Positions 27,352 through 47,786 of a stretch of DNA of 47,827 nucleotides are shown here, in pieces. Origin of the DNA: a virus. The stretch covers positions 1 to 47,827 of IMG/VR virus record IMGVR_UViG_3300031578_000067, one strand, 5' to 3'. The position numbers were made by a program, and so were the translations under genes. The notes below the pieces were generated by a model. That model was not told the DNA's origin and did no database searches. It was given only the letters and a program-made list of their open reading frames with translations. How positions within the stretch are numbered: the first letter of the stretch is position 1; every line of letters starts with the position of its first letter.

Positions 27352-27362
27352 TGTGTTCCTTC

Positions 27363-28059: not shown

Positions 28060-28305
28060 TCACGCTCCAATCCGCTTTCGCCGCCGCCCGCCCGCACGCT
28101 TCGGCACGCTCACCCCGTGTGCCGCCGCCAGACGCTTCAGGCCCAGGGAGAAGATGCTTTCCCAGTCCACCGACACCCGTTCGGTACGAGTGCCCGCCCT
28201 CCAGAGCTCGATGTATCGATCGTGGATCTCCACATTCAGCAGCCGCCCGCGATCCTTCACCGCCGTCTGCCGCTTCAAGGTCTTTCCTTCGCCTAACGTG
28301 GTCAT
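28060..28305 (-). CDS. Small basic protein, 81 aa
   Basis: ATG at 28305 with AAAGGAG upstream. It contains V-E-I-H-D-R-Y-I-E-L-W-R-A-G and ends in a strongly basic R-A-G-G-R-R-R-K-R tail, suggesting nucleic-acid binding. No family recognised. Confidence 0.6.
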   Translation of the reverse strand: MTTLGEGKTLKRQTAVKDRGRLLNVEIHDRYIELWRAGTRTERVSVDWESIFSLGLKRLAAAHGVSVPKRAGGRRRKRIGA

Positions 28306-28318
28306 AAGACTACTCCTT

Positions 28319-28435
28319 TCAGCCATACTGCACAATGCACACCAGCGCCAGCGCCACGGCTACCGCTACCGCCAGAGGCCACATGAGGCCACCATCTGGC
28401 CGATAGGATCCGCGGCGATGCGCCCAAACAATCAT
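28319..28435 (-). CDS. Mini membrane protein, 38 aa
   Basis: The leftward ATG at 28435 overlaps the previous stop (ATGA). After a basic start, an Ala/Val/Leu helix of about 20 residues runs almost to the C-terminus. Confidence 0.5.
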   Translation of the reverse strand: MIVWAHRRGSYRPDGGLMWPLAVAVAVALALVCIVQYG

Positions 28436-28656
28436 CGGAACCACCCCCGGCGCCGCGGCTTCTGCCCGGGAAGCGAGTACCCGGACTCCCGCCACTCGCC
28501 CGCCAGCTCGTCGAGGTGGGGCGTGATCGTCTGCCGCTCGGCCGTGCCCGCGTAGAATGGATTGCGCCGCTTGTCTCGCTGGCGGTCGATTTCATCGAGG
28601 ATCATCACCCCGACTTTCAGCCGCTCCGCTGTCGTCATGCGATCGGCTGGTGTCAT
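28432..28656 (-). CDS. Hypothetical helical protein, 74 aa
   Basis: ATG at 28656 overlaps the stop of a 13-codon leader (ATGA). Charged helix (E-R-L-K-V-G-V-M-I-L-D-E-I-D-R-Q-R) and a basic end. No family. Confidence 0.55.
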   Translation of the reverse strand: MTPADRMTTAERLKVGVMILDEIDRQRDKRRNPFYAGTAERQTITPHLDELAGEWRESGYSLPGQKPRRRGWFR

Positions 28657-28694
28657 GGCCGGCCACCCTTTGCCGTAGTACAATGTCCTTGCAT
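28653..28694 (-). CDS. Possible 13-aa leader peptide
   Basis: GAGGAG is placed correctly for an ATG at 28694, which opens 13 codons and stops in an ATGA overlap with the next start. The downstream gene has no strong site of its own, so it is probably translated by coupling through this leader. Confidence 0.4.
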   Translation of the reverse strand: MQGHCTTAKGGRP

Positions 28695-28766
28695 CGTGTT
28701 GTCTCCTCAAGATTGCCCGATGTGCGGGCCGGTTATCTTGGCAGGTTCCCGGCCCGGTTACTAGAG

Positions 28767-28813
28767 CTAACCGCTCTCCCCGCACCCTCATAACGCGCGG
28801 GGGCAGGGGTTAG
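28767..28813 (-). other. Intergenic stem-loop E8
   Basis: CTAACCGCTCTCCCCGC (28767-28783) pairs with GCGGGGGCAGGGGTTAG (28797-28813) at 14 of 17 positions plus one wobble. The upstream gene's stop codon (28810-28812) is part of the stem. Same family as the elements at 29.1-31.8 kb. Confidence 0.6.
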
Positions 28814-29121
28814 ACCACTTCATCCGGTATTACCGCAGGCGGCAGGCCGCTATTTTCAACGCTCACATGGTTGTGGCCAAGCCCAATCCAGTAGGCCACA
28901 ATCGCGGCACCCTTCGGTGTTAGCTTCCACCAGCACATAGCGCCGGGGTTCGGCTTCTGTGCGTGTTCCATGTATCCACCCTGAACGGCCTGCTTGTATT
29001 CTGTGGCGCACCCAAGGCCAGTCCATTGCTTGAGAATGCTCTGCTTGTCATTGCCATTGAATCGGCAGCGACGGCGAAGCGCCTCTGCAAGAACACTGTG
29101 TTCTTTTGTCCGTAGTATCAT
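28810..29121 (-). CDS. Hypothetical protein, 103 aa, winged-helix-like
   Basis: ATG at 29121 preceded by GGGAGGATTGGACG. The sequence alternates helices with K-L-T-P-K-G-A-A-I-V-A-Y-W, a typical winged-helix wing, so DNA binding is possible. No family name. Confidence 0.6.
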   Translation of the reverse strand: MILRTKEHSVLAEALRRRCRFNGNDKQSILKQWTGLGCATEYKQAVQGGYMEHAQKPNPGAMCWWKLTPKGAAIVAYWIGLGHNHVSVENSGLPPAVIPDEVV

Positions 29122-29139
29122 CGTCCAATCCTCCCTTCT

Positions 29140-29185
29140 CTAACCGCTCTCCCAGCGCCCCTCCAAGCGCCGGGGCAGGGGTTAG
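29140..29185 (-). other. Intergenic stem-loop E7
   Basis: The 19-base arms 29140-29158 (CTAACCGCTC then TCCCAGCGC) and 29167-29185 pair at about 14 positions. The stop codon of the upstream gene (29182-29184) lies in the stem, and the next ribosome site follows directly. Confidence 0.6.
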
Positions 29186-29397
29186 GCAGTCAGGCAACTT
29201 CTCAGGATGCCAATCATCCGGCGTTGTTCACCGGCTACGGCGCGCGCTCCACTGTCACCGTCAGAGTCTTTCTCGTTTTGCTTGGCATGTCGCCTGAGGT
29301 CCGCGATGATGCCAATCAATGGATTACAGACCGGGCAATTAGGATCGACTCCCGGCTTGTGTGTTGCGCTTCTATGTAGTTGTTCTGCGAGTTTCAT
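29182..29397 (-). CDS. Hypothetical protein, 71 aa
   Basis: ATG at 29397 after GGAGGATTGGACG, the same leader as the 103-aa gene. It has a C-P-V-C-N-P knuckle and His residues near the N-terminus, then a long charged helix. Possibly zinc-binding. Confidence 0.55.
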   Translation of the reverse strand: MKLAEQLHRSATHKPGVDPNCPVCNPLIGIIADLRRHAKQNEKDSDGDSGARAVAGEQRRMIGILRSCLTA

Positions 29398-29411
29398 CGT
29401 CCAATCCTCCA

Positions 29412-29442
29412 CCACTCCCCCAGCCGGGCCACGGGGGAGCGG
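29412..29442 (-). other. Intergenic stem-loop E6
   Basis: CTCCCCC (29415-29421) pairs perfectly with GGGGGAG (29433-29439), extended by mismatched flanks. It is placed between a stop and a ribosome site, but here the stop codon is outside the stem. Confidence 0.55.
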
Positions 29443-29449
29443 TCGAATA

Positions 29450-29770
29450 TCAGGCGGATGTTAACTCCATCGGACCGCCCACGATCTCGCATTCGCCAGC
29501 GTGGATTGTCTTGCGCCACTCATCGTCGCCGATCTTACAGGAGTGACACCAGGCCGAACAGCCATTGTCAATCCATAGCGACTCAGCAATCCCGCCGCCG
29601 CGTCTGGACTTCAGGTAGTACACTGTTCCTCCCTCCAGCCCTTCCGGCATGGTTTCCAGTTCTCCGAAGCAGACCACGGTTCCGCCGATGCTCCGCATGA
29701 TCTCTCTTAGCGCGTATCCTTGCGAAAAGGGTAACGGCTTCTCCAGATTGAATAATCTCGCTTGCAGCAT
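29450..29770 (-). CDS. Hypothetical protein, 106 aa
   Basis: ATG at 29770 preceded by GGAGGGG, one base after the upstream stop. Two Cys (C-S-A-W-C-H-S-C) cluster near residue 80. Beta-rich N-terminus. No family recognised. Confidence 0.6.
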   Translation of the reverse strand: MLQARLFNLEKPLPFSQGYALREIMRSIGGTVVCFGELETMPEGLEGGTVYYLKSRRGGGIAESLWIDNGCSAWCHSCKIGDDEWRKTIHAGECEIVGGPMELTSA

Positions 29771-29771
29771 T

Positions 29772-29981
29772 TCATCCCCTCCAGGCCCAAGTCTTTTCTC
29801 CAATGCATTTCCAACCAGGGGACGACCACCCCACCAGCTCTCTGTCCCTGGTTTCCCATCGCGTATCGTACGGACGGGAAACGGGCATTATGCAGCGCTT
29901 GTCAGCGTACAAGATAGCGAAAAACTCCGCCTTTGTAACCTGCCTCATCCCGTCTGGTACTTGTGCTGCTTCGGTTTGCAT
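29772..29981 (-). CDS. Hypothetical protein, 69 aa
   Basis: ATG at 29981 with GGAGG at good spacing. A K-A-E-F-F-A-I-L-Y helix is followed by a Trp-rich C-terminus. No family. Confidence 0.55.
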   Translation of the reverse strand: MQTEAAQVPDGMRQVTKAEFFAILYADKRCIMPVSRPYDTRWETRDRELVGWSSPGWKCIGEKTWAWRG

Positions 29982-30000
29982 TCTCGTATCCTCCATTCGG

Positions 30001-30054
30001 TTAGTACCGCTCACTCCACCGCATCCCCAGGACGCGGCAGAGTCAAAGGTCTAA
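30001..30054 (-). other. Intergenic stem-loop E5
   Basis: Outer TTAG/CTAA with ACC/GGT (30001-30008 with 30048-30054), then ACTC/GAGT, then CCGC-A-TCC with GGA-C-GCGG. The upstream stop codon (30051-30053) is in the outer stem. Confidence 0.5.
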
Positions 30055-30386
30055 TGGAGCAAGTCTCCCAGCCCCACGGTCACAAACCGCGCCTTCAGAG
30101 CCTCATTGAAACCGGGGTCAATCCCTTTGAAGCGGTGCCCCTGGTCCTCATTCCACTGTTTGATCCCCCGTATTTCAGCGGAGAATTCAGCATCGGTTTC
30201 GGCGGTCCGCTTGGTTACGTCGCCCTCACAATACGTCACGATCAGGCGTCGTTCAGGGTTCGCCCATGTGCCGAAGTACCAAGCGTCCTGATCCGTATCC
30301 ACTTGGGCGAATCCGCGAGCGATGGTACACAGCTTGAAGTCGTACAAGTACCGATCAGCGTTCATGAAAGTTTTAACCGTTTGCAT
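30051..30386 (-). CDS. Hypothetical protein, 111 aa
   Basis: ATG at 30386 with GGAGG upstream. Beta-rich core with W-Y-F-G-T-W and V-T-Y-C; C-terminal helix. No family. Confidence 0.6.
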   Translation of the reverse strand: MQTVKTFMNADRYLYDFKLCTIARGFAQVDTDQDAWYFGTWANPERRLIVTYCEGDVTKRTAETDAEFSAEIRGIKQWNEDQGHRFKGIDPGFNEALKARFVTVGLGDLLH

Positions 30387-30406
30387 TTCATTCCTCCATT
30401 CAGAAT

Positions 30407-30459
30407 CTAATCGCCTCACAGCTCCCCACTGCCACCAATGGGGAGATAGAGGGGACTAG
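30407..30459 (-). other. Intergenic stem-loop E4
   Basis: Inner CTCCCCA/TGGGGAG (30422-30428 with 30439-30445) is perfect. An outer nine-base stem with two mismatches starts at the stop codon (30456-30458). Confidence 0.6.
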
Positions 30460-30716
30460 CCAGCATTCCTCACCAAAACGTCAAAGTGCGCACGTCTGGC
30501 AAAACTGATAGTGTTGCCAACGTGAAACAACACCAACAACTTCCCCCACCTGGCAACCGGGATAGGCCGAGCATCGGCCATAATGCGGGCCGTATGAGTA
30601 GGAGACTGCGGCACTGTGTTTCCACACTCCAGATACCGCCGTTGCATTCTCTCTCTGAGTCTTGACAGTCGTACTATTTCCAAGTGCTCATGCGCTATGG
30701 CTTCATAATTCAACAT
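30456..30716 (-). CDS. Hypothetical protein, 86 aa
   Basis: ATG at 30716 after GGAGGGTTGGACG, the third gene with this leader. Helical basic N-terminus (R-L-S-R-L-R-E-R-M-Q-R-R). No family. Confidence 0.55.
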   Translation of the reverse strand: MLNYEAIAHEHLEIVRLSRLRERMQRRYLECGNTVPQSPTHTARIMADARPIPVARWGKLLVLFHVGNTISFARRAHFDVLVRNAG

Positions 30717-30752
30717 CGTCCAACCCTCCATTCCTTTTCGTGCTTGTCGTGT

Positions 30753-31115
30753 CTAGTGCGACTCCTCGAATTCTTCGGAGTCCGTCTCGCCCACAAACTC
30801 AGCGATGGACGGGAAGCGGGTAACCGGGACATAGCGCGTCCTCTCGCGTACCGTGACAATCCGTTCGTCCCGGTCGGTCGTAATCACGCGCCGAACAACC
30901 AGGAACCGTGAATCAGCCGTCAAGTGGCAGTGCTGAAAATCGCCACAGCTTACCGCCGCCCGTGCGAATTCCACCGCCGCAGGGTCAGCATGTCGCCCAT
31001 TTCCAAACGCTACTTGCCGTTCGCCGATGGATACCGGCTTTGAACATTCGGACCCTTCCCAAATCGGGCCATAGATGGCGCCAATTAAACGTGTTTCGCT
31101 TTCAAAGTGTCGCAT
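30753..31115 (-). CDS. Hypothetical protein, 120 aa
   Basis: ATG at 31115 with GGAGG upstream. Beta-rich, with an acidic C-terminus (E-T-D-S-E-E-F-E-E). No family recognised. Fourth gene in the leftward transcript after the promoter. Confidence 0.6.
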   Translation of the reverse strand: MRHFESETRLIGAIYGPIWEGSECSKPVSIGERQVAFGNGRHADPAAVEFARAAVSCGDFQHCHLTADSRFLVVRRVITTDRDERIVTVRERTRYVPVTRFPSIAEFVGETDSEEFEESH

Positions 31116-31133
31116 TTCGTTCCTCCATTCCTT

Positions 31134-31183
31134 CTAGTGTCCTCATCCCCGCCGTCTGTCACCCGGCGGGGGAAGTGCGCTAG
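31134..31183 (-). other. Intergenic stem-loop E3
   Basis: Inner CCCCGCCG/CGGCGGGG (31147-31154 with 31164-31171) is perfect. Outer CTAG/CTAG (31134-31137 with 31180-31183) contains the stop codon of the upstream gene. Confidence 0.6.
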
Positions 31184-31326
31184 TGTGCCGGTCTCGGAAT
31201 CTTGCGCTCAAACCAGATCAAGAACAGTCCCGTACGGATCACCTTCCACCCGTTTGCGTGTAGCCGTTCCGCCTGCTTCAAACCGCGTAGTGTGCTCGTG
31301 TCAACAATCTTGTACTTGAGTGCCAT
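31180..31326 (-). CDS. Small protein, 48 aa
   Basis: ATG at 31326 preceded by GGGAGG opens 48 codons with an amphipathic pattern (L-K-Q-A-E-R-L-H-A-N-G-W-K-V-I-R-T-G-L-F-L-I-W-F). The gene fits exactly between elements E3 and E2, which supports it. No family. Confidence 0.55.
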   Translation of the reverse strand: MALKYKIVDTSTLRGLKQAERLHANGWKVIRTGLFLIWFERKIPRPAH

Positions 31327-31334
31327 GTTTCCTC

Positions 31335-31387
31335 CCTAAGCATTCACAACTGCCCACGCGCTACCATGGGCAGATAGAGTGCTTAGG
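31335..31387 (-). other. Intergenic stem-loop E2
   Basis: Outer CCTAAGCA/TGCTTAGG (31335-31342 with 31380-31387) and inner CTGCCCA/TGGGCAG (31350-31356 with 31367-31373) are both perfect. The stop codon 31383-31385 is inside the outer stem, and the ribosome site abuts its other arm. Confidence 0.65.
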
Positions 31388-31769
31388 CCGCAACGTTCAG
31401 CGCTTCCCGCTGAATCCTGCGTGCCTGCAACATCGCATCATTGGCAGTCAGATACCACTGGGAGCAGATCTGCCGCTGAGCATCAAACTTGGCCAGGTAC
31501 TCGTCAAGGTAATGGCAGCGGTACGTATCCCGCTGAGTACTGCCAGTGTAGCGGTACCTGATATGCAGTATCCCGCCCATGGAGCTATCAACGCTTGATA
31601 GCCCGAATTTGTATTGACTGCGGGGCTCCTCGGGATCTTTCGCCGTCGCAAACCAATTGATTTCACCGGCTGCCGCGTCCCAGTAGGCACGCTCAAACAG
31701 TCCAGACTCCCGCGCCATCGCGTCGAAGCGTTCCAGCTTGTCTTTTTTCGTCAGTCCGTATCTTGCCAT
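31383..31769 (-). CDS. Hypothetical protein, 128 aa
   Basis: ATG at 31769 with GGAGG upstream. The N-terminus is basic (R-Y-G-L-T-K-K-D-K-L-E-R-F). A beta part and a C-terminal helix (A-M-L-Q-A-R-R-I-Q-R-E-A-L) follow. No family. Confidence 0.6.
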   Translation of the reverse strand: MARYGLTKKDKLERFDAMARESGLFERAYWDAAAGEINWFATAKDPEEPRSQYKFGLSSVDSSMGGILHIRYRYTGSTQRDTYRCHYLDEYLAKFDAQRQICSQWYLTANDAMLQARRIQREALNVAA

Positions 31770-31783
31770 ATTTCCTCCATCCT

Positions 31784-31832
31784 TAAACGTTCACCCGGCC
31801 CCACGCGTGACCATGGGGCCGAAGAGCGCTTA
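31784..31832 (-). other. Intergenic stem-loop E1
   Basis: Inner CGGCCCCA/TGGGGCCG (31796-31803 with 31814-31821) is perfect; outer TAAACG/CGCTTA (31784-31789 with 31827-31832) has one wobble. Loop and flanks match E2 closely, but the stem bases differ with pairing kept. Confidence 0.65.
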
Positions 31833-32075
31833 CTCACACTCCACAAACGGCGCAAGCTGCGCTGATTCCAGGTCAGTCCCGCCCCCGCACGCACGGTCCA
31901 CGAGGTCCGCGTCCACCGCATGAGGGTTCAGTGCTTCACACTCGCTGTCCGTGCCGCAAGCAAACACCTGCTGGCCAGCAGGATTGACGACTATCTCAGG
32001 CACGCTCAGAAGAGCATAGCCGATAGCGACGACGGCCAACTGCCCAGCCGCGAATACCATCAATCTTTTCTTCAT
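31830..32075 (-). CDS. Exported or membrane-anchored small protein, 81 aa
   Basis: First gene of the leftward operon. ATG at 32075 after GGGAG gives a signal-anchor: M-K-K-R-L then a hydrophobic helix (8-29). The rest has four Cys (F-A-C-G-T-D-S-E-C, A-C-G-G-G, V-E-C) that may form disulphides outside the cytoplasm. A role at the cell surface of the lysogen is plausible. Confidence 0.6.
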   Translation of the reverse strand: MKKRLMVFAAGQLAVVAIGYALLSVPEIVVNPAGQQVFACGTDSECEALNPHAVDADLVDRACGGGTDLESAQLAPFVECE

Positions 32076-32098
32076 CTCATGAACTCCCTTCACTCACG

Positions 32099-32127
32099 AT
32101 ATTACCCCAAGGGGCTGAGCATGTCAA
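32099..32127 (-). promoter_or_regulatory. Consensus promoter of the leftward operon
   Basis: Read leftward: TTGACA (32127-32122), 17 bases, TAATAT (32104-32099). This is the closest consensus match in the window. TCGTGAGTG directly downstream is a half-copy of the palindrome at 32852-32885. Confidence 0.85.
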
Positions 32128-32199
32128 TAGTTATTTTGCACCTACTTGCACTTTTTTTCAGTACCCCTATTAATAGATGATGCACGAATAGCCCCTTGG
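32107..32199. promoter_or_regulatory. Paired operator-like inverted repeats between divergent promoters
   Basis: CCAAGGGGCT (32107-32116) lies in the spacer of the leftward promoter. Its exact reverse complement AGCCCCTTGG (32190-32199) overlaps the -35 box of the rightward promoter. One protein binding both could close both promoters or loop the 70 bases between. Confidence 0.6.
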
Positions 32200-32223
32200 C
32201 ATATTCCAAACCTGTGATATGAT
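32196..32223 (+). promoter_or_regulatory. Rightward promoter of the RHH gene
   Basis: TTGGCA (32196-32201) and TATGAT (32218-32223) are 16 bases apart, directly upstream of the start at 32233. The short distance means a leader of only a few bases. Confidence 0.6.
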
Positions 32224-35785: not shown

Positions 35786-36160
35786 ATGGCCAGAAGTCCT
35801 CTTGAAACCATTGCCATCGCCAAGCACATCGCGGGACCTGACAAACGGAACCCGTTCTTCTCCTATAAGAAGAAGCCGCGAAAGGTCTTTGAGAATCCGG
35901 CAGTTGCGCTCGAAGCGAAACGCAGGCTGGTCGAACAGGCGATCGCCGATCTCTACCCCGGCCACAAGGTGGAGAAGGCAGACGTGCTGGAACGGTTCAA
36001 ACTTGGGATGTCAGAATGTCCGATCTGGCTGAAGAGCCTCACAGAAGACACGGCCATCTTTCAGCGGCCGGGAGACGGAAACATGGCTGGCGTCCGGTAT
36101 TCGATTACCGATGGCAAAGTCACTCTCGGGGAGCCCTTCCCGCTTGAACTCCAGCTTTGA
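35786..36160 (+). CDS. Hypothetical protein, 124 aa
   Basis: ATG at 35786, weak ribosome site. Basic N-terminal half (F-S-Y-K-K-K-P-R-K-V-F), a helical middle and a beta C-terminus. It directly precedes the terminase genes and may be a packaging accessory. The next gene's TTG start overlaps its stop. Confidence 0.6.
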   Translation: MARSPLETIAIAKHIAGPDKRNPFFSYKKKPRKVFENPAVALEAKRRLVEQAIADLYPGHKVEKADVLERFKLGMSECPIWLKSLTEDTAIFQRPGDGNMAGVRYSITDGKVTLGEPFPLELQL

Positions 36161-36855
36161 AACAAGCAATTTCCGGCGTGCGCGCCCAGGAGCAGGTGCT
36201 CATCTACGAGCGCTACCAGCTCGAGCGCCCCAACAATTTCGAGTACCAGAAATGGTGCGAGGCGGCAGCCGAAGAGCACGGCCTCAGCGTCAGTCAGGTC
36301 CGCCGGATCATTTCTACCGGCGAAAAGGATTTTCTCGACCAGGTTTCCCAGGCGTCGGTTTCGAAAGCCCAGCAAGTAGCCGGGCTGATGGGGCTCCAGC
36401 TTGAGGATGCCTTCGAAATCCTGAAAGAGCAGTTGCACGCCACCGAGCGCCGGCCGCTTACCGACAAAGACGGCCGGATGCAGCGCAATTGCACCCATTG
36501 TGGCGGTTCCGGAAAGACGATCATCACCGACAGCGCCACCAAGAAAGAGCGCGGGATAACCTGCCTGTACTGTGAAGGTACCGGCGGCGAAGTGATCTGG
36601 CTGGAGAAGCCGCATAATGCGGCCCGGCTGAAGGCTGTGAAGCTCTGCTTTGATCTCTTCGGCGCCGCGGCCCCCGATCAGTTGGAGATCAACGCGAAAC
36701 ACACCCATTACCATGTCACCAGCGCAGTACTCGAATCCCGGCTCACCCAACTCTACGGACAGATCCAATCCCTGCAGTCCGGAGCTACTCGCCAGATTGC
36801 GGGAAGCGGAGACGATCAGCCGGGAACTGATGGTACGAAGGGCCATCGAGGATAA
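36157..36855 (+). CDS. Terminase small-subunit candidate with HTH and zinc knuckle
   Basis: TTG start overlapping the previous stop. Residues 15-60 form a helix-turn-helix (Y-Q-K-W-C-E-A-A-A-E-E-H-G-L-S-V-S-Q-V-R-R-I-I). A DnaJ-type knuckle C-T-H-C-G-G-S-G...C-L-Y-C-E-G-T-G follows at about 110-145, and the C-terminus is helical. Placement directly before the large subunit and an HTH fit a small terminase, which recognises the packaging site. The knuckle is unusual for that family. Confidence 0.6.
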   Translation: MKQAISGVRAQEQVLIYERYQLERPNNFEYQKWCEAAAEEHGLSVSQVRRIISTGEKDFLDQVSQASVSKAQQVAGLMGLQLEDAFEILKEQLHATERRPLTDKDGRMQRNCTHCGGSGKTIITDSATKKERGITCLYCEGTGGEVIWLEKPHNAARLKAVKLCFDLFGAAAPDQLEINAKHTHYHVTSAVLESRLTQLYGQIQSLQSGATRQIAGSGDDQPGTDGTKGHRG

Positions 36856-37468
36856 GTACTACTGGCTCACGCAGTGCACGCGGACCAAGGATGAGCAGGA
36901 TCTGGTGGACCCGTACAAGCCGTTTCCGGACAAGGATTACTTATGGCACGTGATACAGTATCTAGACAACTGGCCGAACCCAGTAAAAGCGATCGAGAAG
37001 AGCCGCACAATGATGGCTTCGTGGGGAGTTTCAGGTTGGAGCGGACATCTTGGATTCACCCATCCGGCTATATGCACGGTATTCCAGAGCCAGGACGAGC
37101 GCCGCGCAATCCACGATGTGGATTACGTCAAGGAACTCTGGAAGAACTCGCTGCCGGAGTTGAAGGATCGCTGGCCGATTCCGAAACCCGTCGAGCGCCA
37201 GCCGGCCACCGAATTCAGACTCTCTAACGACAGCCGCTGGGTGGCGCTTTCCCGGGATCCGGACGCGATTCGTTCTGAGCACCCGACCATCGTGGTTCTG
37301 GACGAGGCGGCCCACATGATCGAGGGGCAGGAAAGTTACGATATCGCGGTCGCAGCCAACCCGCTGCACATCATCCTGCTATCGAGCGCAGCACAGGGTT
37401 GGTACGAGGACTTCACCGCGCCGGCCATTCCGACGGACTGGCCGTGGGAGATGAGGGTGGCAGCATGA
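36830..37468 (+). CDS. terL: Terminase large subunit, N-terminal ATPase part (split gene)
   Basis: With ATG at 36830 the product has 212 residues (TTG at 36797 is a possible longer start, and the upstream residues also look genuine). It holds the ATPase motor: a Walker A-like K-S-R-T-M-M-A-S (57-64), Walker B T-I-V-V-L-D-E-A-A (153-161) and coupling motif L-L-S-S-A-A (183-188). It ends just after this, where an intact terminase would continue into the nuclease. That continuation is found 3.8 kb downstream at 41251. The motor pumps DNA into the procapsid. Confidence 0.85.
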   Translation: MVRRAIEDKYYWLTQCTRTKDEQDLVDPYKPFPDKDYLWHVIQYLDNWPNPVKAIEKSRTMMASWGVSGWSGHLGFTHPAICTVFQSQDERRAIHDVDYVKELWKNSLPELKDRWPIPKPVERQPATEFRLSNDSRWVALSRDPDAIRSEHPTIVVLDEAAHMIEGQESYDIAVAANPLHIILLSSAAQGWYEDFTAPAIPTDWPWEMRVAA

Positions 37469-37914
37469 GAATCCTGATCGTAGCCCACCCCGACGATGAA
37501 GTGATCTGGTTCGCGCCGGAGACATTCGACAAGATTGTCATCGTGTTCGAGGCATTCGGGGACGGACGATCGAGCGATGGGCGCCGGAAGGCGCTGGCCG
37601 AGCACCCGCTCAAAGACAAGATCACCCGGCTCGGGCTCCAGGAGAGCAACTTCTGGAGAGACCCGACCAAACGCGCGGTCCATGAACGAAACCGCGATGC
37701 GCTGTGCGGCTATCTCAAGACGGTTCTCAAGCCGGGCCCGGACGATGAGGTCACCACCCACGGCCCGATGGGCGAGTACCAACACGCCGATCATCTACTG
37801 GTACACCGGGCCTGCATGATGAACCTGGACTGCAAGGTGAACGGGAAAGACCCGAAGCTCTACCGGGAGATTCGCAAGGTGTACGAGAACAATGCATGCT
37901 GGACATGGGACTGA
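37465..37914 (+). CDS. LmbE/PIG-L-like deacetylase, 149 aa
   Basis: ATGA overlap with the terminase N-part. The metal motif A-H-P-D-D-E is at residues 8-13 and a second His pair lies in G-E-Y-Q-H-A-D-H. These are the hallmarks of LmbE/PIG-L enzymes, which remove acetyl groups from N-acetyl sugars. It is shorter than the usual 220-250 residues, so it may be a minimal form or truncated. It should act with the glycosyltransferases that follow. Confidence 0.82.
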   Translation: MRILIVAHPDDEVIWFAPETFDKIVIVFEAFGDGRSSDGRRKALAEHPLKDKITRLGLQESNFWRDPTKRAVHERNRDALCGYLKTVLKPGPDDEVTTHGPMGEYQHADHLLVHRACMMNLDCKVNGKDPKLYREIRKVYENNACWTWD

Positions 37915-38455
37915 GTTACAGATCTCTGCGGTGATCCCAACCCGGGGCGACGTCGATCTCGGTCCGATCGTTGACCGGCTGCGGGAATACCCCGAGGTCC
38001 GTCAGATCATCATCGAAATCGGCGATACGCCGTTCAACCGGTACCTGGGCGCGGAAAAGGCCCGGTACCCGGTGATCTACACCCAGGACGATGACTGCAT
38101 CACAGACATCCGGCCCCTGATTGAGCGGTATCGGCCGGCGATTCTCGTCAACGCCATGACGGCGGAGCACGAGCCAAACTACCGCGGCCAGCGTGACACC
38201 CTGATCGGGTTCGGCGGCATCTTCCACCGGGACCGGCTATCGGTTCTCAATGGCTGGGAGCGCGATCCACTGTTTCTCCGGGAATCTGATCGGGTATTCA
38301 CTTCCCTGGTCCCCTACGAGACAGTGTTCCCACAGATCGAGATTCTGGACTGTTCGTGCAACGGCGACCGGATGTGGAAGCAGCCGGAGCACACCAAGGC
38401 CGGAGAACAAATCCGCGAACGAATCAACGTGTTTCTGAGGACGCATCCATGCTAA
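37892..38455 (+). CDS. Glycosyltransferase-like protein, 187 aa
   Basis: It overlaps the deacetylase by 23 bases. The N-terminus (I-S-A-V-I-P-T-R-G-D) and the T-Q-D-D-D-C-I motif near 78 match a nucleotide-sugar binding GT-A fold with a D-x-D-type metal site. The acceptor half is short. Likely transfers a sugar to a phage or host target; substrate unknown. Confidence 0.7.
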   Translation: MHAGHGTELQISAVIPTRGDVDLGPIVDRLREYPEVRQIIIEIGDTPFNRYLGAEKARYPVIYTQDDDCITDIRPLIERYRPAILVNAMTAEHEPNYRGQRDTLIGFGGIFHRDRLSVLNGWERDPLFLRESDRVFTSLVPYETVFPQIEILDCSCNGDRMWKQPEHTKAGEQIRERINVFLRTHPC

Positions 38456-39138
38456 AGAAACTGTTCATTAGAGTATGGTTCGGGCCTCTTCCGGAGTGGA
38501 TGCCGCAGTATTACAACAACACTGCGGACCTGAAGCGCTACGGCTTCGACTGGCTCGTCGTCAACGACTACGAGTTTTTCCGGGAACGGATCCAACAAAC
38601 GCTGGGAATCGAGATCGCACCCTACGATGCAATCGCCGGAACGCGCAAAGCCGGCGACTTCGATCCGGCCTACGGAGTCATCTTCGCTGAGGAATTGCAG
38701 GGTTATGACTTCTGGGGGCACACCGGTCTGGATTGTGCCTATGGCCGGCTGGACAGGTTTGTCGGCGACAAATTCCTGGCCGACTGCGACATCTTCGGGA
38801 ATGATCCCGGGGCTATCTGCGGACCCTTCTCGCTCTACCGGAATTCGGACAAGGTGAATAACCTTTTCCGGCGTGTTCCGGATTGGGAACTCCTACTCAG
38901 TGACGCGGAGATGTATGGGTTTGACGAAATCCACTTCAACAGGATCGTGCAGCAAGCGTCGGCCGCCGGAGAAATCCGTTTCAAGACGGCATTCCACCAA
39001 TCGCACGACACCGAACCTGAGCATTTCCCGGTTCCCCGCATGAGATTGGAAGAGGACGGTACGCTCTTGGATCTGGCGAAGAACAAAGAGACGATGATGT
39101 TCCACTTCCACCGTTACAGGAAATGGCCGATTTTATGA
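38449..39138 (+). CDS. DUF6625-like glycosyltransferase, 229 aa
   Basis: ATG at 38449 just inside the previous gene. Motifs A-Y-G-V-I-F-A-E-E-L, G-Y-D-F-W-G-H-T-G-L-D and C-G-P-F-S-L-Y-R-N resemble the DUF6625 group, thought to be glycosyltransferases, where D-F-W-G-x-x-D-x-D marks the sugar-nucleotide site. The C-terminus is aromatic-rich. Overlaps the next gene as ATGA. Confidence 0.7.
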   Translation: MLKKLFIRVWFGPLPEWMPQYYNNTADLKRYGFDWLVVNDYEFFRERIQQTLGIEIAPYDAIAGTRKAGDFDPAYGVIFAEELQGYDFWGHTGLDCAYGRLDRFVGDKFLADCDIFGNDPGAICGPFSLYRNSDKVNNLFRRVPDWELLLSDAEMYGFDEIHFNRIVQQASAAGEIRFKTAFHQSHDTEPEHFPVPRMRLEEDGTLLDLAKNKETMMFHFHRYRKWPIL

Positions 39139-39887
39139 ATACGCGCATCCTTCTGACCGGCGGTTCGGGACGCCTCGGCAGTAAACTGCACCGTATTTTG
39201 CGGGCACTTCCGGATGTGGACTGTTTCGCCCCAACGAGAGAAGAACTGGACATTGCCGATTTTGACTCGTGTTTGGGAGTAATGGACTTCTTCTACCCGG
39301 ACGTTGTGATTCATGCCGCAGCTTTCGCCGATACGGCCGGCTGTGAGCGGAATCATGGTCGCTGCTGGGAAGTGAACGTGGAGGGTACAGAGAACATGCT
39401 GACCGCCAACGAGGCCGACCGCTTCGTCTACATCTCCACAGATTACATCTTCGACGGCGCAACTGGCAACTACGCGGAAGATGATGTCCCGGGGCCGGTC
39501 AATTTCTATGGACTCTCGAAGCTGGCCGGAGAAATCGCCGTCAGGCAATACGAGAATACCTTGATTCTGCGGGCGCCGTTCCGCGACGATCCGCCCTGGC
39601 GCTACGACCGGGCTTTTGAAGATCAGTTTACAAGCTGTGATTCCGTTTCAATCCGTGCTCCGCAAATTGTGGAGGCGGCCTTGAGCGATTGGACCGGCAT
39701 TTTGCACATAGGTGGCCGCCGCCGGTCGATCCTTGAGATGGCGCGCGAAGCCGGGCCAGCCGACATCGGCGGTATCTACCGGTCCGAATTCAAGAATATC
39801 CGTCTGCCGCGCGACACTTCTCTCAATAGCGATAGATGGCTCGCGTTGAAGGCCAAACAGGAGGTTCAGTTTTGTTCTCAGTCGTGA
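39135..39887 (+). CDS. RmlD-like NAD(P)-dependent sugar reductase/epimerase
   Basis: ATGA overlap sets the start at 39135 (an in-frame ATG at 39123 is less likely). The nucleotide-binding L-T-G-G-S-G-R-L-G opens the protein, followed by H-A-A-A-F-A-D, Y-I-S-T-D-Y-I-F-D-G and the catalytic Y-G-L-S-K. This matches extended SDR enzymes such as RmlD, which finish deoxysugar nucleotides. It would feed the neighbouring transferases. Confidence 0.85.
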   Translation: MNTRILLTGGSGRLGSKLHRILRALPDVDCFAPTREELDIADFDSCLGVMDFFYPDVVIHAAAFADTAGCERNHGRCWEVNVEGTENMLTANEADRFVYISTDYIFDGATGNYAEDDVPGPVNFYGLSKLAGEIAVRQYENTLILRAPFRDDPPWRYDRAFEDQFTSCDSVSIRAPQIVEAALSDWTGILHIGGRRRSILEMAREAGPADIGGIYRSEFKNIRLPRDTSLNSDRWLALKAKQEVQFCSQS

Positions 39888-41272
39888 TTCTCTCCAAGGA
39901 CATTGGCAATCTTCTGCCCTGTGTCCGGGCGATTTTCGAGCATGAGCCCGATCTTCCCCCTGATCGAATCATCGTGGTCGACGACGGTATCCGGGGGCGC
40001 GGCGACGATGGCCCGATCGTCATTGACGGCAAGCCGCTCACCACCATTCCGGGCGTGAAGCCGTTCGTCTTCGCCCGAAACGCCAATCTCGGGATTCGGC
40101 GCGCGAAGACGGATGTCATTCTTCTCAATGACGACGCTTTTCTCACGACTCCCCGCGGTTTCACCGGCCTCTCGGAGTTGTCGGCCAACAATCCGAAGCT
40201 CGGGCTGATCTCGGCCGCCGTGAAGGGTGTGGTCTGCAACCCGCTACAGAAAGACAACGGGAAAAAGGAAATCCGCCAGATCGACGCGAACATGGCCTTT
40301 GTTTGCACCTACCTGCCGCGCCGGGTGTACGAGCAGATCGGCTACCTCGATGAGCGTTACGTGGGGTACGGCTACGAAGACAACGACTACTGCCGGCGCC
40401 ACGACATGACTGGACTGTTCGGCAAGGTCGCGGCAAACGCCTGTGTTGTGAATCACGCCGGGCACTCCAATTTCCGCACGCAGAAAGGCTGGGTGGATCT
40501 CAGCCAGCAGAATCTCAACATCTTTAGTAAGAAGTGGAAAGACGACCCTGACTACGAGCGGGTTGTGGACATCATGTACCTGGCCTGCAACCGCCTGGAG
40601 TTCACCAAGGCCAGCTTCGAGGCCATGCGCGACAACACAGACTGGTTCTATTGCCACTCTTTGTGGGTCTACGACGATGGTTCGACCGACGGGACACGCG
40701 AGTATCTTGAGGAAGCCATTAAGACGATTCCGACCGATCGCGTTTTCATCAAATCGAACTTCGGAGGTCCGATCGGCCCGATGCAGCATTTCGTAACGCA
40801 CGCCACTTCGCCCTACCTGGCGAAGATCGACAACGATACCATGTTGCCGGATAGCTGGATCGAGACGTCGCTCGACGTGATCTGCAAGCATCCCGATCTG
40901 CACCTCCTTGGGATCGAACCCTTCAAGGTCGAACTCGGGAAGGATATGGCTCACACCGAATACGATGTCGTCCCGTCCTGGCACGGCCACATCGGAGGCA
41001 TCGGCCTGTTCCGGGCGTCGGCGTTCATCGACTCACAGCCCACTCCGGAACCCGGGAAATACTTCGGTTTCTGGAACTGGCAGACAGCGAACCCGCAAAT
41101 CACGCGCGGTTTCATCAATCCGGGAATGCCGGTTTTTCTGCTGGACCGGATGCCGGTAGAACCCTGGCGCGGACTCTCCGATGAGTATGTCCGCAAGGGC
41201 TGGCAGCGGCCCTGGCCGAACTACACGGAAAAGCAAAGTGATCTCTGGGAATGGCATCTCCAGGCGGCGTAA
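39872..41272 (+). CDS. Tandem GT2 glycosyltransferase, 466 aa
   Basis: TTG at 39872 with CAGGAGG 6 bases upstream. Two GT-A domains follow each other: domain 1 (1-220) with V-V-I-L-S-K-D, V-V-D-D-G and L-L-N-D-D-A; domain 2 (230-460) with Y-L-A-C-N-R, Y-D-D-G-S-T-D-G-T and K-I-D-N-D-T. Each has its own D-D-G and D-x-D, so both may be active and add two sugars. It ends where the terminase nuclease half begins. Confidence 0.85.
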   Translation: MFSVVILSKDIGNLLPCVRAIFEHEPDLPPDRIIVVDDGIRGRGDDGPIVIDGKPLTTIPGVKPFVFARNANLGIRRAKTDVILLNDDAFLTTPRGFTGLSELSANNPKLGLISAAVKGVVCNPLQKDNGKKEIRQIDANMAFVCTYLPRRVYEQIGYLDERYVGYGYEDNDYCRRHDMTGLFGKVAANACVVNHAGHSNFRTQKGWVDLSQQNLNIFSKKWKDDPDYERVVDIMYLACNRLEFTKASFEAMRDNTDWFYCHSLWVYDDGSTDGTREYLEEAIKTIPTDRVFIKSNFGGPIGPMQHFVTHATSPYLAKIDNDTMLPDSWIETSLDVICKHPDLHLLGIEPFKVELGKDMAHTEYDVVPSWHGHIGGIGLFRASAFIDSQPTPEPGKYFGFWNWQTANPQITRGFINPGMPVFLLDRMPVEPWRGLSDEYVRKGWQRPWPNYTEKQSDLWEWHLQAA

Positions 41273-42225
41273 GAATCCCCTGCAAGGGGGTGATGCTGAA
41301 GGTCACTCCGGACGGGATGCCGGTTCTGCGGCTGATGTTCGATGCAGATCCGGACAAAGATCCCGCCAACGAGAAGGGGCGGGCATGGCTGGAACAGAAG
41401 CGCAAGGAATTCACCAATGAGGCGATCTTCCGACAGGAGCTTTATATTGACTACGGCGCCAAGCGCGGCCAGCTTGTCTTTCCCGAGTTTGATCGGGCTC
41501 TCCATTGTGTGGATCCAAGCGCTGTACCGGAACAGCTTACAGTCTACTGCGCCATCGACCCGCATCCACGGACTCCGCACGCGATTCTCTGGATTGGAGT
41601 TGACCGGTGGGAAGACTACTGGGTCTTTCGAGAACTCTGGCCGAGCAAAGTGTACGGGAAGCCGAAGAACCTCAGCGACACCGATGAAGACAACCGCTAC
41701 ACCACCAAGGAGTATGTGGAAATCATCGCGATGCTGGAGGGGAACCGAATCGAATGGTGCGATCCGGAGACCGATAACGAGCACGGCTTCTACCGCGAGG
41801 AAGGTCACGGCGAACGGATCGTTGAGCGGTTCATGGATCAGGCGGGGAAAGGCTTCCGGGCCCGAGGCGGCGACGGCACACCAGAGCTGAGTATCTCGGA
41901 CGTCTACCACGACTACGGGATATCCTGCCGCGACCCGATCAAGTCTCACGAGACCGGCGAAGACGCCATTCGGGAACTTCTCAAGCTGCGGCATCACAAT
42001 ACGCTCGGACAGTGGCCGCGGATTCACTTCTCTACGGATTGCCCAGAGATCATCCTCGAAATGGAGAAGTGGCGGTACAAGTCGCGGAACAGACAGTTGG
42101 ACGAGCTGGAGCTTTGGCAGGAAGGCATCAAGGCCCGGCGGCATCTCATCGACTGCCTTCGATATCTAGTGACGGCCGACCTCGGTTGGATAGACCGGTT
42201 GGCATCAAGGAGAAAACCATCATGA
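41251..42225 (+). CDS. terL: Terminase large subunit, C-terminal nuclease part (split gene)
   Basis: ATG at 41251, overlapping the glycosyltransferase by 22 bases, gives 324 residues. Similarity to terminase begins at I-P-C-K-G-V-M-L-K. The segment F-R-Q-E-L-Y-I-D-Y-G-A-K-R-G-Q-L-V-F leads into the RNase H-like nuclease: first acid in A-I-D-P-H, a second in W-C-D-P-E, and the last in H-L-I-D-C-L-R-Y. All appear intact. It cuts concatemeric DNA at the start and end of packaging. It must act with the separate ATPase polypeptide. Confidence 0.85.
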   Translation: MASPGGVRIPCKGVMLKVTPDGMPVLRLMFDADPDKDPANEKGRAWLEQKRKEFTNEAIFRQELYIDYGAKRGQLVFPEFDRALHCVDPSAVPEQLTVYCAIDPHPRTPHAILWIGVDRWEDYWVFRELWPSKVYGKPKNLSDTDEDNRYTTKEYVEIIAMLEGNRIEWCDPETDNEHGFYREEGHGERIVERFMDQAGKGFRARGGDGTPELSISDVYHDYGISCRDPIKSHETGEDAIRELLKLRHHNTLGQWPRIHFSTDCPEIILEMEKWRYKSRNRQLDELELWQEGIKARRHLIDCLRYLVTADLGWIDRLASRRKPS

Positions 42226-42617
42226 GAGAGATACCAGTATGGGAATGCCCTGACGGGCAAGGCCGCGCCGATGCCGGTGCCGCCTTCGTGGAGGTAGCAG
42301 CCAAGACGGCCGACTACACCATCAAAGATTACGAGACAGGCAAGTGCTTCTCGAATGCCGGCGCCACTGGCACCGTTGTGCTGACTTTGCCGACGCCCAA
42401 GGCCGGCTTCTGGTTCCAGTTTGTGAAGATCGTTCCGGACCAGATTCTCTCGATCAAGGCCCCGACCGGAGTCACGATCAACATGGGAACGGCCGCCCAA
42501 GTCTACAAGGACGCCACCACGGAAACAATCTACGCGACCCTGCGCCTGGCGGCCTACTCAACCACCGCCTACGTGGTAGAAGCCGAGAAGGGCACTTGGG
42601 CCAACGCGGCCAGCTAG
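42222..42617 (+). CDS. Beta-rich virion protein, possible capsid decoration, 131 aa
   Basis: ATGA overlap with terminase and AAGGAG upstream. The sequence is strand-rich (T-V-V-L-T-L-P-T-P, F-W-F-Q-F-V-K-I-V, A-T-L-R-L-A-A-Y) with few charges, like head-decoration or tail-tip beta sandwiches. Placement between terminase and portal fits. No firm family. Confidence 0.6.
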   Translation: MREIPVWECPDGQGRADAGAAFVEVAAKTADYTIKDYETGKCFSNAGATGTVVLTLPTPKAGFWFQFVKIVPDQILSIKAPTGVTINMGTAAQVYKDATTETIYATLRLAAYSTTAYVVEAEKGTWANAAS

Positions 42618-42669: not shown

Positions 42670-42870
42670 ATGCACGACGACGAGTACGACGAAACCAGGA
42701 AGCCGACCTCGGCTGAACTCATGCAGCGCTCCGAGGAGCAATACGCGGAGGATCTGATCCCGCTCCGTGAAGTATCGAGAATAACAGGGATTCCTGTTTC
42801 CGTCATTTTGGCAAAAGTGGATGCTGCCGCCCATTCACGGGGTTCAAAGATCCACAACAGGCACCTATGA
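42670..42870 (+). CDS. Small HTH-like protein, 66 aa
   Basis: ATG at 42670 after AAGGAGGGAG. Acidic N-terminus, then a short HTH-like L-R-E-V-S-R-I-T-G-I-P-V-S-V-I. It overlaps the portal start by 4 bases. Possibly a small regulator or portal helper. Confidence 0.55.
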   Translation: MHDDEYDETRKPTSAELMQRSEEQYAEDLIPLREVSRITGIPVSVILAKVDAAAHSRGSKIHNRHL

Positions 42871-44885
42871 GCGAAGAAAAGGACCGCGGGCAATTCATTC
42901 TCGACCGTAAGAAGCAGAGCCGCGAGTGGCTGAAGGATAACTTCTACCAAGAGTGGATTGACGCCTATAGAAACTACAAGGTCTACTGCGACCCGCAGAC
43001 CGATGATGAGGGCACGGTCGATGAGGAACGGAGCGCCATCGGCTCCCCGCTCACATGGTCGGCCGCCCAACGGCTGAAGGCCCGTGTCACCGCCCAGACT
43101 CCGAACTTCGCATTCCACGCAGAGGATCCGGACGTCGGTGAACTGATCGGCCGCACGCTCATGTACCAGTGGGACGTCGGCAGGTTCCAGCGCATTCAGA
43201 AGAAACATATCCTCCAGGCCGTTATCTGTGGTTGGAGCCCGCGCGCCTGGCACTGGGCCGTCGACGAATATCCTGGCAGCAAGCGGCTGGAAATCAACGC
43301 CGCGGCGAACGATCCGAGCCAGCTTCGCCTGGTGGCGGAGACCTATAAGATTCCCGAACAGGATCTTCAGCCGGGGAACCCGCGCACGATGGCGGTTCTG
43401 ACCGAACTTCTCAGCAAGAACGGTCGCGGCGGCCTGCTTCCCGTGGAGTACATCTACAAAGCCTACGAGGGACCGAAGTGCGAATTTATGTTTGTCGGAG
43501 ACTGTTTCCCGCAGCCGCACTTCCAGTCGATACAAAGTTCCGATTACTTCTTGGCGAACCGGCGCCGGGACATGCCGTGGATGCAAGAGGTAGCCAAAGC
43601 CTACCCGGAGCTGGCCAAGGGTTTCGAGACCGTGCGGGAGGAACACCCGGATGGAATGAAGGCGCGCTACTACGGAGACGATGAAGACACGGACCTGTTC
43701 CAAAGTCTGCTCACTGCTATCAACAAGTTCTCCGGATCAGACCGGGTATGGGGAGACGATCACGACACCGGACACTGGACGATCACCGAGCATCACGTAC
43801 CCGGGCCCGACCCGTATCTAGAGTACTGCTGCGGTAACATCTACATCGGCAGGATCAAGTACCCCTACGACCTGGCCGGCAAGATCGCCTTTACAGAGTG
43901 CATCCTGATCGACGACATTCTGAGTGGCATCGGGGATTCCACTTCCCGCGTGATGCGCGGCCTCCACAAGCTGCACGAGAAGCAGTTCAACGCCCGATCC
44001 GATTTGATATACAATTTGGCCCGCCCGCTTCTCGGAACGAACAACCGCCGCCTGATGGATAACCCGAACGAGATCCGGCGCGGAGCCGGCTTCCGGCTGG
44101 TCTACATGCGGAGTCCGAGTGATCTCTGGATGCAGCCGGAACAGGCCGCCATGGCCGCGGCTTCCGCCAGCCTGCAGGACGAGAGCGGAATCATGCGGCT
44201 CTACCAGATGCTGACCGGCGAGAACAATATGACGATGATGGCGAACGTCGATCCCAGCCAGAATCGCACCGCCACCGGGGCCAAGATTTCGGCTAACGTC
44301 ACCGACATTCTGACGAAAGACTTCCAGGACACACTCGAACAGTCCAGCCTCATCGAAGACGCGCAGATGATGTATCTCCTAAACCGCTCTGAGTTGTCGG
44401 AGCCCATCCGCTTTGAAGTGAGCCGGTACAACCGCCAGAACAGCTACTCCGAAGAGGCATGGAAAAAGAAGTGGGCGAGCATTGAACCAATCCACTTCCA
44501 GGTGGATGGCGAAATCACAGTGGAGTCCGGATCCATGCTGGCCGAAGACGACGAGAGCAGGGCCTCGGTGGCCAGGGAGATGTTCCAGGCTGCGCTCCAA
44601 TACCCGATGGCAATCAATCTGGAGAAAGCGCGGGATGAATTCCTGATTTCTCACGGCAAGCGCCACGAACTGGAGCAATGGATTCCGAAGCCGCCGCCGC
44701 GTACTCCACCCGAATTGAAAAGCAGCATGTCGATCGCCGCACGGTTCGAAGATCTGAATGATGCCCAACAGCGTCAGGCAATGGCTCGGATTGGGATCGA
44801 CAGCAATCCGCCGGCGAAAGGTGAAGCTCCGCCAGGTGGAGAGCCCCCGCCGCCACCGATGCCGCCGCAAGGGGGTGGCGCATGA
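42867..44885 (+). CDS. Portal protein, 672 aa
   Basis: The N-terminus (R-K-K-Q-S-R-E-W-L-K-D-N-F-Y-Q-E-W) and a central W-Y/P-rich body are typical of the large portals of podovirus-like phages with SU10-type capsids. A long helical part (about 400-560, including L-L-G-T-N-N-R-R-L-M-D-N-P) fits the stem and wing. The last 40 residues are Pro/Gly-rich. It forms the 12-fold ring through which DNA enters; order terminase-portal-scaffold-capsid supports the call. Confidence 0.8.
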   Translation: MSEEKDRGQFILDRKKQSREWLKDNFYQEWIDAYRNYKVYCDPQTDDEGTVDEERSAIGSPLTWSAAQRLKARVTAQTPNFAFHAEDPDVGELIGRTLMYQWDVGRFQRIQKKHILQAVICGWSPRAWHWAVDEYPGSKRLEINAAANDPSQLRLVAETYKIPEQDLQPGNPRTMAVLTELLSKNGRGGLLPVEYIYKAYEGPKCEFMFVGDCFPQPHFQSIQSSDYFLANRRRDMPWMQEVAKAYPELAKGFETVREEHPDGMKARYYGDDEDTDLFQSLLTAINKFSGSDRVWGDDHDTGHWTITEHHVPGPDPYLEYCCGNIYIGRIKYPYDLAGKIAFTECILIDDILSGIGDSTSRVMRGLHKLHEKQFNARSDLIYNLARPLLGTNNRRLMDNPNEIRRGAGFRLVYMRSPSDLWMQPEQAAMAAASASLQDESGIMRLYQMLTGENNMTMMANVDPSQNRTATGAKISANVTDILTKDFQDTLEQSSLIEDAQMMYLLNRSELSEPIRFEVSRYNRQNSYSEEAWKKKWASIEPIHFQVDGEITVESGSMLAEDDESRASVAREMFQAALQYPMAINLEKARDEFLISHGKRHELEQWIPKPPPRTPPELKSSMSIAARFEDLNDAQQRQAMARIGIDSNPPAKGEAPPGGEPPPPPMPPQGGGA

Positions 44886-46574: not shown

Positions 46575-47786
46575 ATGGCCAACCAAACCGGTGTTCGCAC
46601 CACTACTCAGTACACTACCGAGACGCGCAACGTTCGGGACGTGCATGACAAGATCATGCTGTACGATCCCAGCGCCGCGCCCCTCATCACCCTTCTCAAC
46701 CGGGTCAAACGCCGCAAGGCGGTGAAGACCACGCATCACGAATGGTTCGAGCGCGACTATTGCGCTCAGTGGACCACTTCCGCGGCGGCGGCGTCTGCCC
46801 TGACGACCGCAACCACGCTGACTGTCACCGATGGCACGCTGTTCAATGCCGGATCCATGTTCGTTGCCCCGAAGGCAGTGACCAGTTCTTCGGCACCCGA
46901 ACTGATGCGCGTGACCGCCGTCACAGGGAACGTCCTGACCATCGTCCGCGATGTTGGCGGAGCAGGCGTCGACACGATCGCCAGCGGAGACTCTCTTCGA
47001 ATCGTCGGATCGGCGCACGAAGAGAATGGCGCTTTGCCGACCGCAATGGCGTCCGTTCCGTCCGCCCACTCGACGTATCTCCAGATTGTCCGCACCACCA
47101 CCAACTACTCGAACACGGCCATCGCGACTAACGTCTACGGTGCGCCGGGTTCCGACCGCGACTTGCAGCACTACATGGATATGGTTGAGCACAAGAAGAA
47201 GCTCAACTCCATCCTGCTGTGGGGCCGCGCTTCTCAGGACACCACGGGCGGCCCGAGCGGCTACCCGATCCGCACCACGATGGGACTGCGGAGCATCATC
47301 TCGACCAACGTCACCGACGCTTCCGGCATGTTGACTCGCAAGAAATTCTCCACCTTTGCCCGCTCGGCATTCCGATACGGAGAAAAGGAGAAGATCCTGC
47401 TCTGTTCGCCTCTGATCAAGGAGGCCATCACCGCATGGGGCACGAACTTCCTGAAGGTCAGCCCCGGCGAAGACACCTTCGGCGTGAACATCATGAAAGT
47501 CGAAACAGCTTTCGGCGTTTTCGCGATGGTCAATGACTGGATGCTGGAAGACGGCGTTACCGGGAAGAACGGGTTTGGCTCTCTGGCCTTCTCGATCGAC
47601 CTGGACATGATCACGTATTTGTATCTCCAGAACAACGGAGTGAACCGGGACACGAAGGTTGAACTCGATGTCGTCAAGGACGGCAGCGACGGCAAGCGTG
47701 ACCAGATCATCTCCGAATCCGGTTTCCGCATCATGCTGGAAAACCGCCACGCAATGCTCTACGACGTCACTGACTACATGCAGTAG
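46575..47786 (+). CDS. Major capsid protein, SU10/DUF5309-like
   Basis: ATG at 46575, 3 bases after the scaffold stop. The product has 403 residues. The opening D-V-H-D-K-I-M-L-Y-D-P-S-A-A-P-L-I and H-H-E-W-F-E-R-D match the DUF5309 (SU10-type) capsid family with an HK97 fold. An inserted beta domain lies at about 65-150 (T-L-T-V-T-D-G-T-L-F). The C-terminus is L-E-N-R-H-A-M-L-Y-D-V-T-D-Y-M-Q. It builds the icosahedral head. The gene is complete and 41 bases of the window follow it. Confidence 0.88.
   Translation: MANQTGVRTTTQYTTETRNVRDVHDKIMLYDPSAAPLITLLNRVKRRKAVKTTHHEWFERDYCAQWTTSAAAASALTTATTLTVTDGTLFNAGSMFVAPKAVTSSSAPELMRVTAVTGNVLTIVRDVGGAGVDTIASGDSLRIVGSAHEENGALPTAMASVPSAHSTYLQIVRTTTNYSNTAIATNVYGAPGSDRDLQHYMDMVEHKKKLNSILLWGRASQDTTGGPSGYPIRTTMGLRSIISTNVTDASGMLTRKKFSTFARSAFRYGEKEKILLCSPLIKEAITAWGTNFLKVSPGEDTFGVNIMKVETAFGVFAMVNDWMLEDGVTGKNGFGSLAFSIDLDMITYLYLQNNGVNRDTKVELDVVKDGSDGKRDQIISESGFRIMLENRHAMLYDVTDYMQ

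Follow-up and report, generated by a model that had tools for sequence, protein, structure and literature searches.

Organization of the terminase locus

The locus examined here raises the question of how a phage comes to encode its terminase large subunit (TerL) in two separate genes, and whether the five sugar genes between them caused the separation. The window, i.e., the whole stretch of DNA that was analyzed, is a 47.8-kb linear virus fragment with a head module on the + strand at its right end. The module contains, in this order, a TerS-like gene, the ORF of the ATPase half (TerL-N), five sugar genes, the ORF of the nuclease half (TerL-C), a small gene, a portal-like gene, and an SU10-type capsid gene. 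The TerS-like protein (36157..36855) has an HTH-like N-terminus, and the 3' end of its gene overlaps the start of TerL-N (36821..37468), which is uncertain and may be ATG 36830 or a codon upstream. TerL-C (41251..42225) is followed by the genes for the small head-module protein (42222..42617), the portal-like protein (42867..44885), and the major capsid protein (46575..47786; PF17236, E=1.3e-40), all on the + strand.

The surroundings of the two halves are conserved in relatives, which are designated below by L numbers. Homologs of the TerS-like gene lie immediately 5' of TerL-N in L013, L025, and L029, the small gene is kept by synteny directly 3' of TerL-C, and the portal-like protein is 41-51% identical, along most of its length, to homologs in L013, L018, L025, L029, and L033. 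The TerL halves are located between the TerS and portal/capsid genes, as expected for a TerL locus. A scan of the main ORFs identified a tyrosine integrase (25908-26942, minus strand), and RecT, a DnaB helicase, and an N6/N4 methylase are also encoded away from the head module. The original prediction, namely that ATPase and nuclease halves flank five coupled sugar genes, holds for the ORFs, their coordinates, and both folds.

The sugar cassette between the two halves

Five overlapping and coupled genes, all on the + strand, fill positions 37465-41272. The first (37465..37914) starts in an ATGA overlap with the TerL-N stop and encodes a PIG-L/LmbE-like de-N-acetylase (PF02585, E=2e-6; 28.7 bits against a cut-off of 28.2), in which zinc motifs of the HPDD/HxxH type (AHPDDE and HADH) were seen. 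The second (37892..38455) encodes a candidate GT-A-like glycosyltransferase with a YTQDDD motif, the product of which is 32% identical (E 3e-22) to that of a gene adjoining a GT2 gene elsewhere in the record of L039. It is followed by a gene for a glycosyltransferase-like DUF6625 protein (38449..39138; PF20330, E=1.9e-27) and, overlapping the latter by ATGA, a gene for an RmlD-like NAD(P)-dependent sugar reductase (39135..39887; PF04321, E=5.8e-35; YGLSK motif). The last gene (39872..41272) encodes a tandem GT2 glycosyltransferase that matches PF00535 in two stretches (7e-17). Its ORF is open from 39836, and the likely start is TTG 39872 behind GGAGG. Domain 2 of this enzyme shares 38.7% identity with the GT2 located between the TerL halves of L039, and the other domain matches a gene elsewhere in that record, outside the gap. 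All five enzyme types named in the original prediction were found, four with Pfam matches and the GT-A-like protein without one.

The cassette has no sugar-nucleotide synthesis genes of its own, and its enzymes would draw on host sugar precursors. They would be co-expressed with the head genes and may add sugars to a virion protein or to the host surface. Judged by operon position only, virion or surface glycosylation is the most likely role, and the placement of the cassette in the head operon favors a virion target. It is quite possible, if not the reading to which we lean, that the cassette alters a sugar of the host surface (superinfection exclusion or lysogenic conversion) or of DNA rather than the virion. 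The tyrosine integrase makes lysogenic conversion possible, and phage glycosyltransferases are frequently classed as host-takeover genes. However, the cassette lies in the late head operon and does not adjoin the integrase. A role in DNA glycosylation is also disfavored because the scan of the main ORFs detected the N6/N4 methylase only and no base-hypermodification gene.

Identity of the two halves and the position of the cut

TerL-N matched the terminase families of Pfam and PHROG weakly, below all cut-offs, and a profile of 15 family members of TerL-N matched the T4 gp17 structure 3ezk (E=3e-6). The AlphaFold model of TerL-N (pLDDT 88.9) aligned with gp17 residues 106-311 with a Z score of 21.4 and a deviation of 2.7 Å over 197 residues. 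The protein contains the Walker B motif VVLDEAAHM, the coupling motif SSAAQG, and the sequence KSRTMMASW, which we take to be a lambda-like deviant P-loop. Its identity to the homologs in L013, L025, L018, L029, L028, and L021 is 42-56%. The model and motifs indicate that TerL-N is an N-terminal ASCE ATPase of the terminase type, equivalent to subdomain I of gp17.

TerL-C matched the terminase large subunit family phrog_2 (E=1.2e-8). Its AlphaFold model has a pLDDT of 65 and resembles the terminase nucleases of D6E, P22, and SPP1 (Z 15.9-12.8, down to 11.5 with RB49). As originally predicted, the acidic residues of this half are intact: D103, D196, and D301 are invariant across the family alignment and are presumably the catalytic acids of an RNase H-like nuclease. 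Since the Pfam scores of both TerL-N and TerL-C are below the cut-off, phages of this type can be overlooked or wrongly scored in viral surveys based on TerL as the marker.

The fold match of TerL-C to the D6E terminase (Z 15.9) begins at residue 82, and in gp17 numbering the nuclease domain begins at approximately 364-367 in the structural alignments. Because TerL-N ends at gp17 residue 311, a lid/transmission segment of approximately 50 residues would be located in residues 1-80 of TerL-C, an assignment made by position only in a low-confidence stretch of the model. If TerL-C carries this segment, the break falls within the ATPase region, upstream of the transmission subdomain, and not exactly at the ATPase-nuclease border where it had originally been placed.

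The joined sequences of TerL-N and TerL-C aligned end to end, colinearly and without loss, with the fused TerLs of L029 and L026; this was the comparison with intact terminases that the original prediction had proposed. In the window, the two ORFs are in different frames and have their own stops and starts, with the five genes between them, which agrees with the expectation of two separate polypeptides. The two domains are not on one polypeptide in the window or in 32 other contigs. No second copy of either half, and thus no second intact terL, was present within the 47.8-kb linear record.

Split and fused terminases in relatives

Scans of viral and genome contigs with one protein at a time (TerL-N, TerL-C, the capsid, the portal, or GT2) gave no matches, the capsid alignment proved too divergent for scanning, and the annotated phage collection contained no close homologs of the window TerL. 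The TerLs of Kuura and EBPR podovirus 3 were considered as close relatives and rejected because they are not close. Relatives were found by two linkage-blind searches, which together gave 28 split and four one-ORF TerLs, and by an alignment scan. The first search used a hand-made degenerate DNA pattern for the TerL-N motif RSxHP[TS]....DEAA and detected 22 TerLs, of which 18 were split and four were in one ORF (L016, L019, L026, and L029); L019 and L026 are near-identical, and the fused state of L016 was judged only by a long open frame. A second linkage-blind motif pattern added 10 contigs, all split and none fused, two of which (L135 and L144) are identical in the gene found. An alignment scan with TerL-C added L039, L043, and the pair L040/L042, which has an identical sequence from two metagenomes; all were split. 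The contig of L041 begins too near TerL-C to be scored.

The split state was thus found in 33 of 37 contigs, the window included. The original prediction had proposed looking in related phages for the same split or an uninterrupted gene; both exist (four relatives are fused), and within the family the split is the majority state. Outside the window's family, nearly all other TerLs from the TerL-C alignment scan were in one open frame. Among 396 genomes of the phylum to which the Acidobacteria MAG L113 belongs, only one distant TerL was detected, also in one open frame.

Contents of the gap

Many of the split pairs have no cargo between the halves. In L012, L020, L021, L022, L023, L030, L032, L040/L042, L127, and the record of L014, the start of TerL-C lies at most a few tens of bases from the TerL-N stop, and several pairs have GTGA or ATGA overlaps; the stop/start overlap is 4 nt in L021, L032, and L040.

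In the loaded relatives, the cargo measures 0.6-5.4 kb and differs in kind. L025 carries a glycosyltransferase (PF13524), L028 a GT-like gene, and L039 a GT2, so that sugar genes occupy the gap in four members of the close clade, the window included. A PCMT methyltransferase and a histidine phosphatase are present in L024, and L015 has homologs of these genes together with a LAGLIDADG nuclease. The remaining gaps contain secreted-looking ORFs (L033/L018), small ORFs (L043), several small ORFs (the record of L027), or a 143-aa ORF (L133). Apart from pairs of near relatives, the only cargo homology between lineages is one GT2 domain common to the window and L039. The GT in the gap of L028 matches a gene located outside the gap in L040. 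Together with the matches between the window and L039, this indicates that the composition of the cargo changes and that sugar genes enter and leave the gap.

History of the split

An unrooted tree was built from 25 TerLs, with 16 of its 22 inner branches starred. Split TerLs occur on every deep branch, and the fused members are nested among them (L029 with L033/L018, and L019/L026 with L030/L031). Because of this nesting, two changes between the fused and split states, the minimum on the tree, suffice, and the distribution is most simply explained by an old split followed by two re-fusions. Without re-fusion, about ten parallel splits at one place would be needed by our count on the tree. The presence or absence of cargo changed at least 3-4 times. 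In the closest split pair (L033 and L018), dN/dS was 0.014 for TerL-N and 0.029 for TerL-C, and these very low values show that both halves have been maintained by strong purifying selection while separate.

It had originally been proposed that the cassette split TerL. It is improbable that the cassette of the window did so recently by insertion and that the relatives represent independent parallel insertions. The one-ORF TerL of L029 falls within the window's own small clade, and with an unrooted ancestral state parallel splitting is possible. However, this explanation requires about ten independent breaks at one position, several of which left no insert, against two changes, and relatives on all deep branches are split without cargo or with quite different cargo. 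We concluded that the gap was there before the cassette, which is one of the several unrelated loads that it has received and did not cause the split.

We also regard it as very unlikely that the halves are decayed remnants, with the element defective or packaged by another terminase encoded outside the contig. The contig is linear and incomplete, and the search covered this fragment only. However, the motifs and invariant acids are intact, the TerS-TerL-portal-capsid synteny is kept, L033 and L018 show very low dN/dS for both halves, and most of the family is split.

Introns and inteins are a known mode of terL interruption in phages, with homing nucleases; terL inteins have been described in the N4-like Vibrio phage JA1 and cyanophage Mic1 (PMC3670811, PMC7156551), and one relative, L015, has the LAGLIDADG nuclease in its gap. 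Nevertheless, we consider it hardly credible that such an element rejoins the halves with the cassette as its cargo. Rfam searches gave no intron match in the window locus with E values up to 0.5 allowed, or in 12 relatives at the gathering threshold, and the 4-nt overlap in several split pairs leaves no room for any intron. Regarding an intein, TerL-N stops at 37468, and TerL-C, in a different frame, has a start of its own. Neither element is therefore evident, as originally noted. The locus resembles the terL of JA1 and Mic1 in being interrupted and in the possible presence of homing nucleases; however, splicing turns the latter back into one chain, whereas the halves in the present family stand alone, with ordinary cargo or none.

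The weakest explanation, a cassette wrongly joined into an intact terL by assembly, deserves almost no weight, since, although the window is a single metagenomic contig, the genes overlap and are coupled at both junctions, and the split recurs at the same place in more than 30 other contigs from many metagenomes and independent assemblies, including the identical L040 and L042.

Stop-codon recoding was rejected because the stops (TGA, TAG, and TAA) and frames differ. Recombination at a short near-repeat round both junctions (GCAGCATGAGAATCC / GCGGCGTAAGAATCC), noted by eye, was also set aside because it would not restore an open frame. This near-repeat was absent among the repeats shown by the repeat finder.

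A proposed two-polypeptide packaging motor and its cargo slot

Current packaging models assume that a single TerL chain couples ATP hydrolysis to the movement of DNA. The present results make it highly probable that an unisolated phage group has a two-gene, two-polypeptide TerL, with the gap as a recurrent insertion slot. We further propose, with reasonable though lesser confidence, that the ATPase core and the lid-nuclease act in trans as a two-component motor, that the covalent link is not needed in principle, and that the gap doubles as a site of accessory-gene exchange. Coupled translation of a single late message would produce TerL-N and TerL-C together, and the two would then assemble non-covalently into the motor.

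TerL-N and TerL-C share with T4 gp17 the ATPase core fold, the order of the Walker B and coupling motifs, and an RNase H-type nuclease after them. Unlike gp17, which is one chain, they are encoded by two genes, and the P-loop KSRTMMASW lacks GKT. Cutting gp17 at the linker preserved both activities and abolished translocation (PMC3012670), and, thus, the assembly of TerL halves in trans is not self-evident. However, in these phages the break occurs upstream of what corresponds to the gp17 linker and nuclease domain, whereas the experimental cut was at the linker. The transmission subdomain belongs to the ATPase domain in gp17 and appears to go with the nuclease in the window phage, and this placement may make the natural split tolerable. 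Given the loss of translocation in cut T4 TerL, the requirement for a covalent link can be tested directly in these phages. A natural, apparently old, and selected split TerL is also material for finding the contacts that drive the motor.

We found no description of a split TerL of this kind in the open-access literature, only introns, inteins, and unrelated splits. Among the latter are the tail-knob gene of phi29-like phages of Gram-negative bacteria (PMC11476376) and the RNA polymerase of Fonsibacter phages (PMC6811365). In these cases, as in the present family, one ancestral protein is encoded as two genes across a clade. However, the present split affects the packaging motor, and its gap is a repeated cargo slot.

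Within the head operon, the TerL junction is a gene border like any other, and insertions at this point can therefore leave both halves unharmed. The gap has been loaded repeatedly with unrelated cargo and has probably been emptied or re-fused at times, and it would offer accessory sugar genes a route into the core head operon. As in the moron or cargo slots of tailed-phage late operons, unrelated accessory genes lie tightly packed on the same strand between structural genes, whereas the present slot is between two halves of one enzyme. Among the 11 split contigs of the close clade, the boundary between TerL-N and TerL-C was the most loaded of the head module, exceeding 500 nt in eight; the corresponding numbers were two for TerL-C and the next gene, one for the next gene and the portal, and none for the scaffold and capsid.

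Discussion

The P-loop of the TerL-N family, the ATPase half of the split terminase large subunit (TerL), reads KSR(T/D)MMxSW or similar (37000-37030 in the window), and its first lysine and its arginine were invariant in 15/15 members of the family alignment. T4 gp17 has GKT in its P-loop, whereas the TerL-N family does not; the family motif is similar to the deviant P-loop of lambda gpA.

The gap between the two TerL halves contained other genes in relatives. In L015, a LAGLIDADG-type homing nuclease ORF (L015:5874-6344, minus strand; PF14528, 2.8e-6) is a possible clue to the route by which cargo entered the gap. The minus-strand 143-aa ORF in the L133 gap (L133:2451-2882; start MKIYVASSWRND) likely encodes a nucleoside 2-deoxyribosyltransferase-like protein, as judged by eye. 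The 174-nt gap of L139 holds a 58-aa ORF (L139:3264-3440) resembling a shortened DNA methylase (TSPPYWGLRKY), which is perhaps the leftover of deleted cargo. A second sugar cluster was located outside the gap in the record of L039 (L124:1372-3463, minus strand), comprising a GT2 gene, a homolog of the glycosyltransferase candidate at window 37892-38455, and a third ORF.

A TerL of a different family also appeared as two ORFs (L045:845-2389; 213 and 254 aa, 139 nt between them); this arrangement may reflect either a split that arose independently or a frameshift. A 4.4-kb contig assigned to an Acidobacteria MAG carried a TerL-C-like (nuclease half) ORF with an early stop (L113:3536-4051), downstream of bacterial-looking genes. 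No TerL-N was present on this contig, which may be a prophage remnant or misbinned.

Since a minus-strand block of the window (25708-32200) holds a tyrosine integrase gene (25908-26942, minus strand; PF00589, 1e-23), the results suggest that this phage is temperate.
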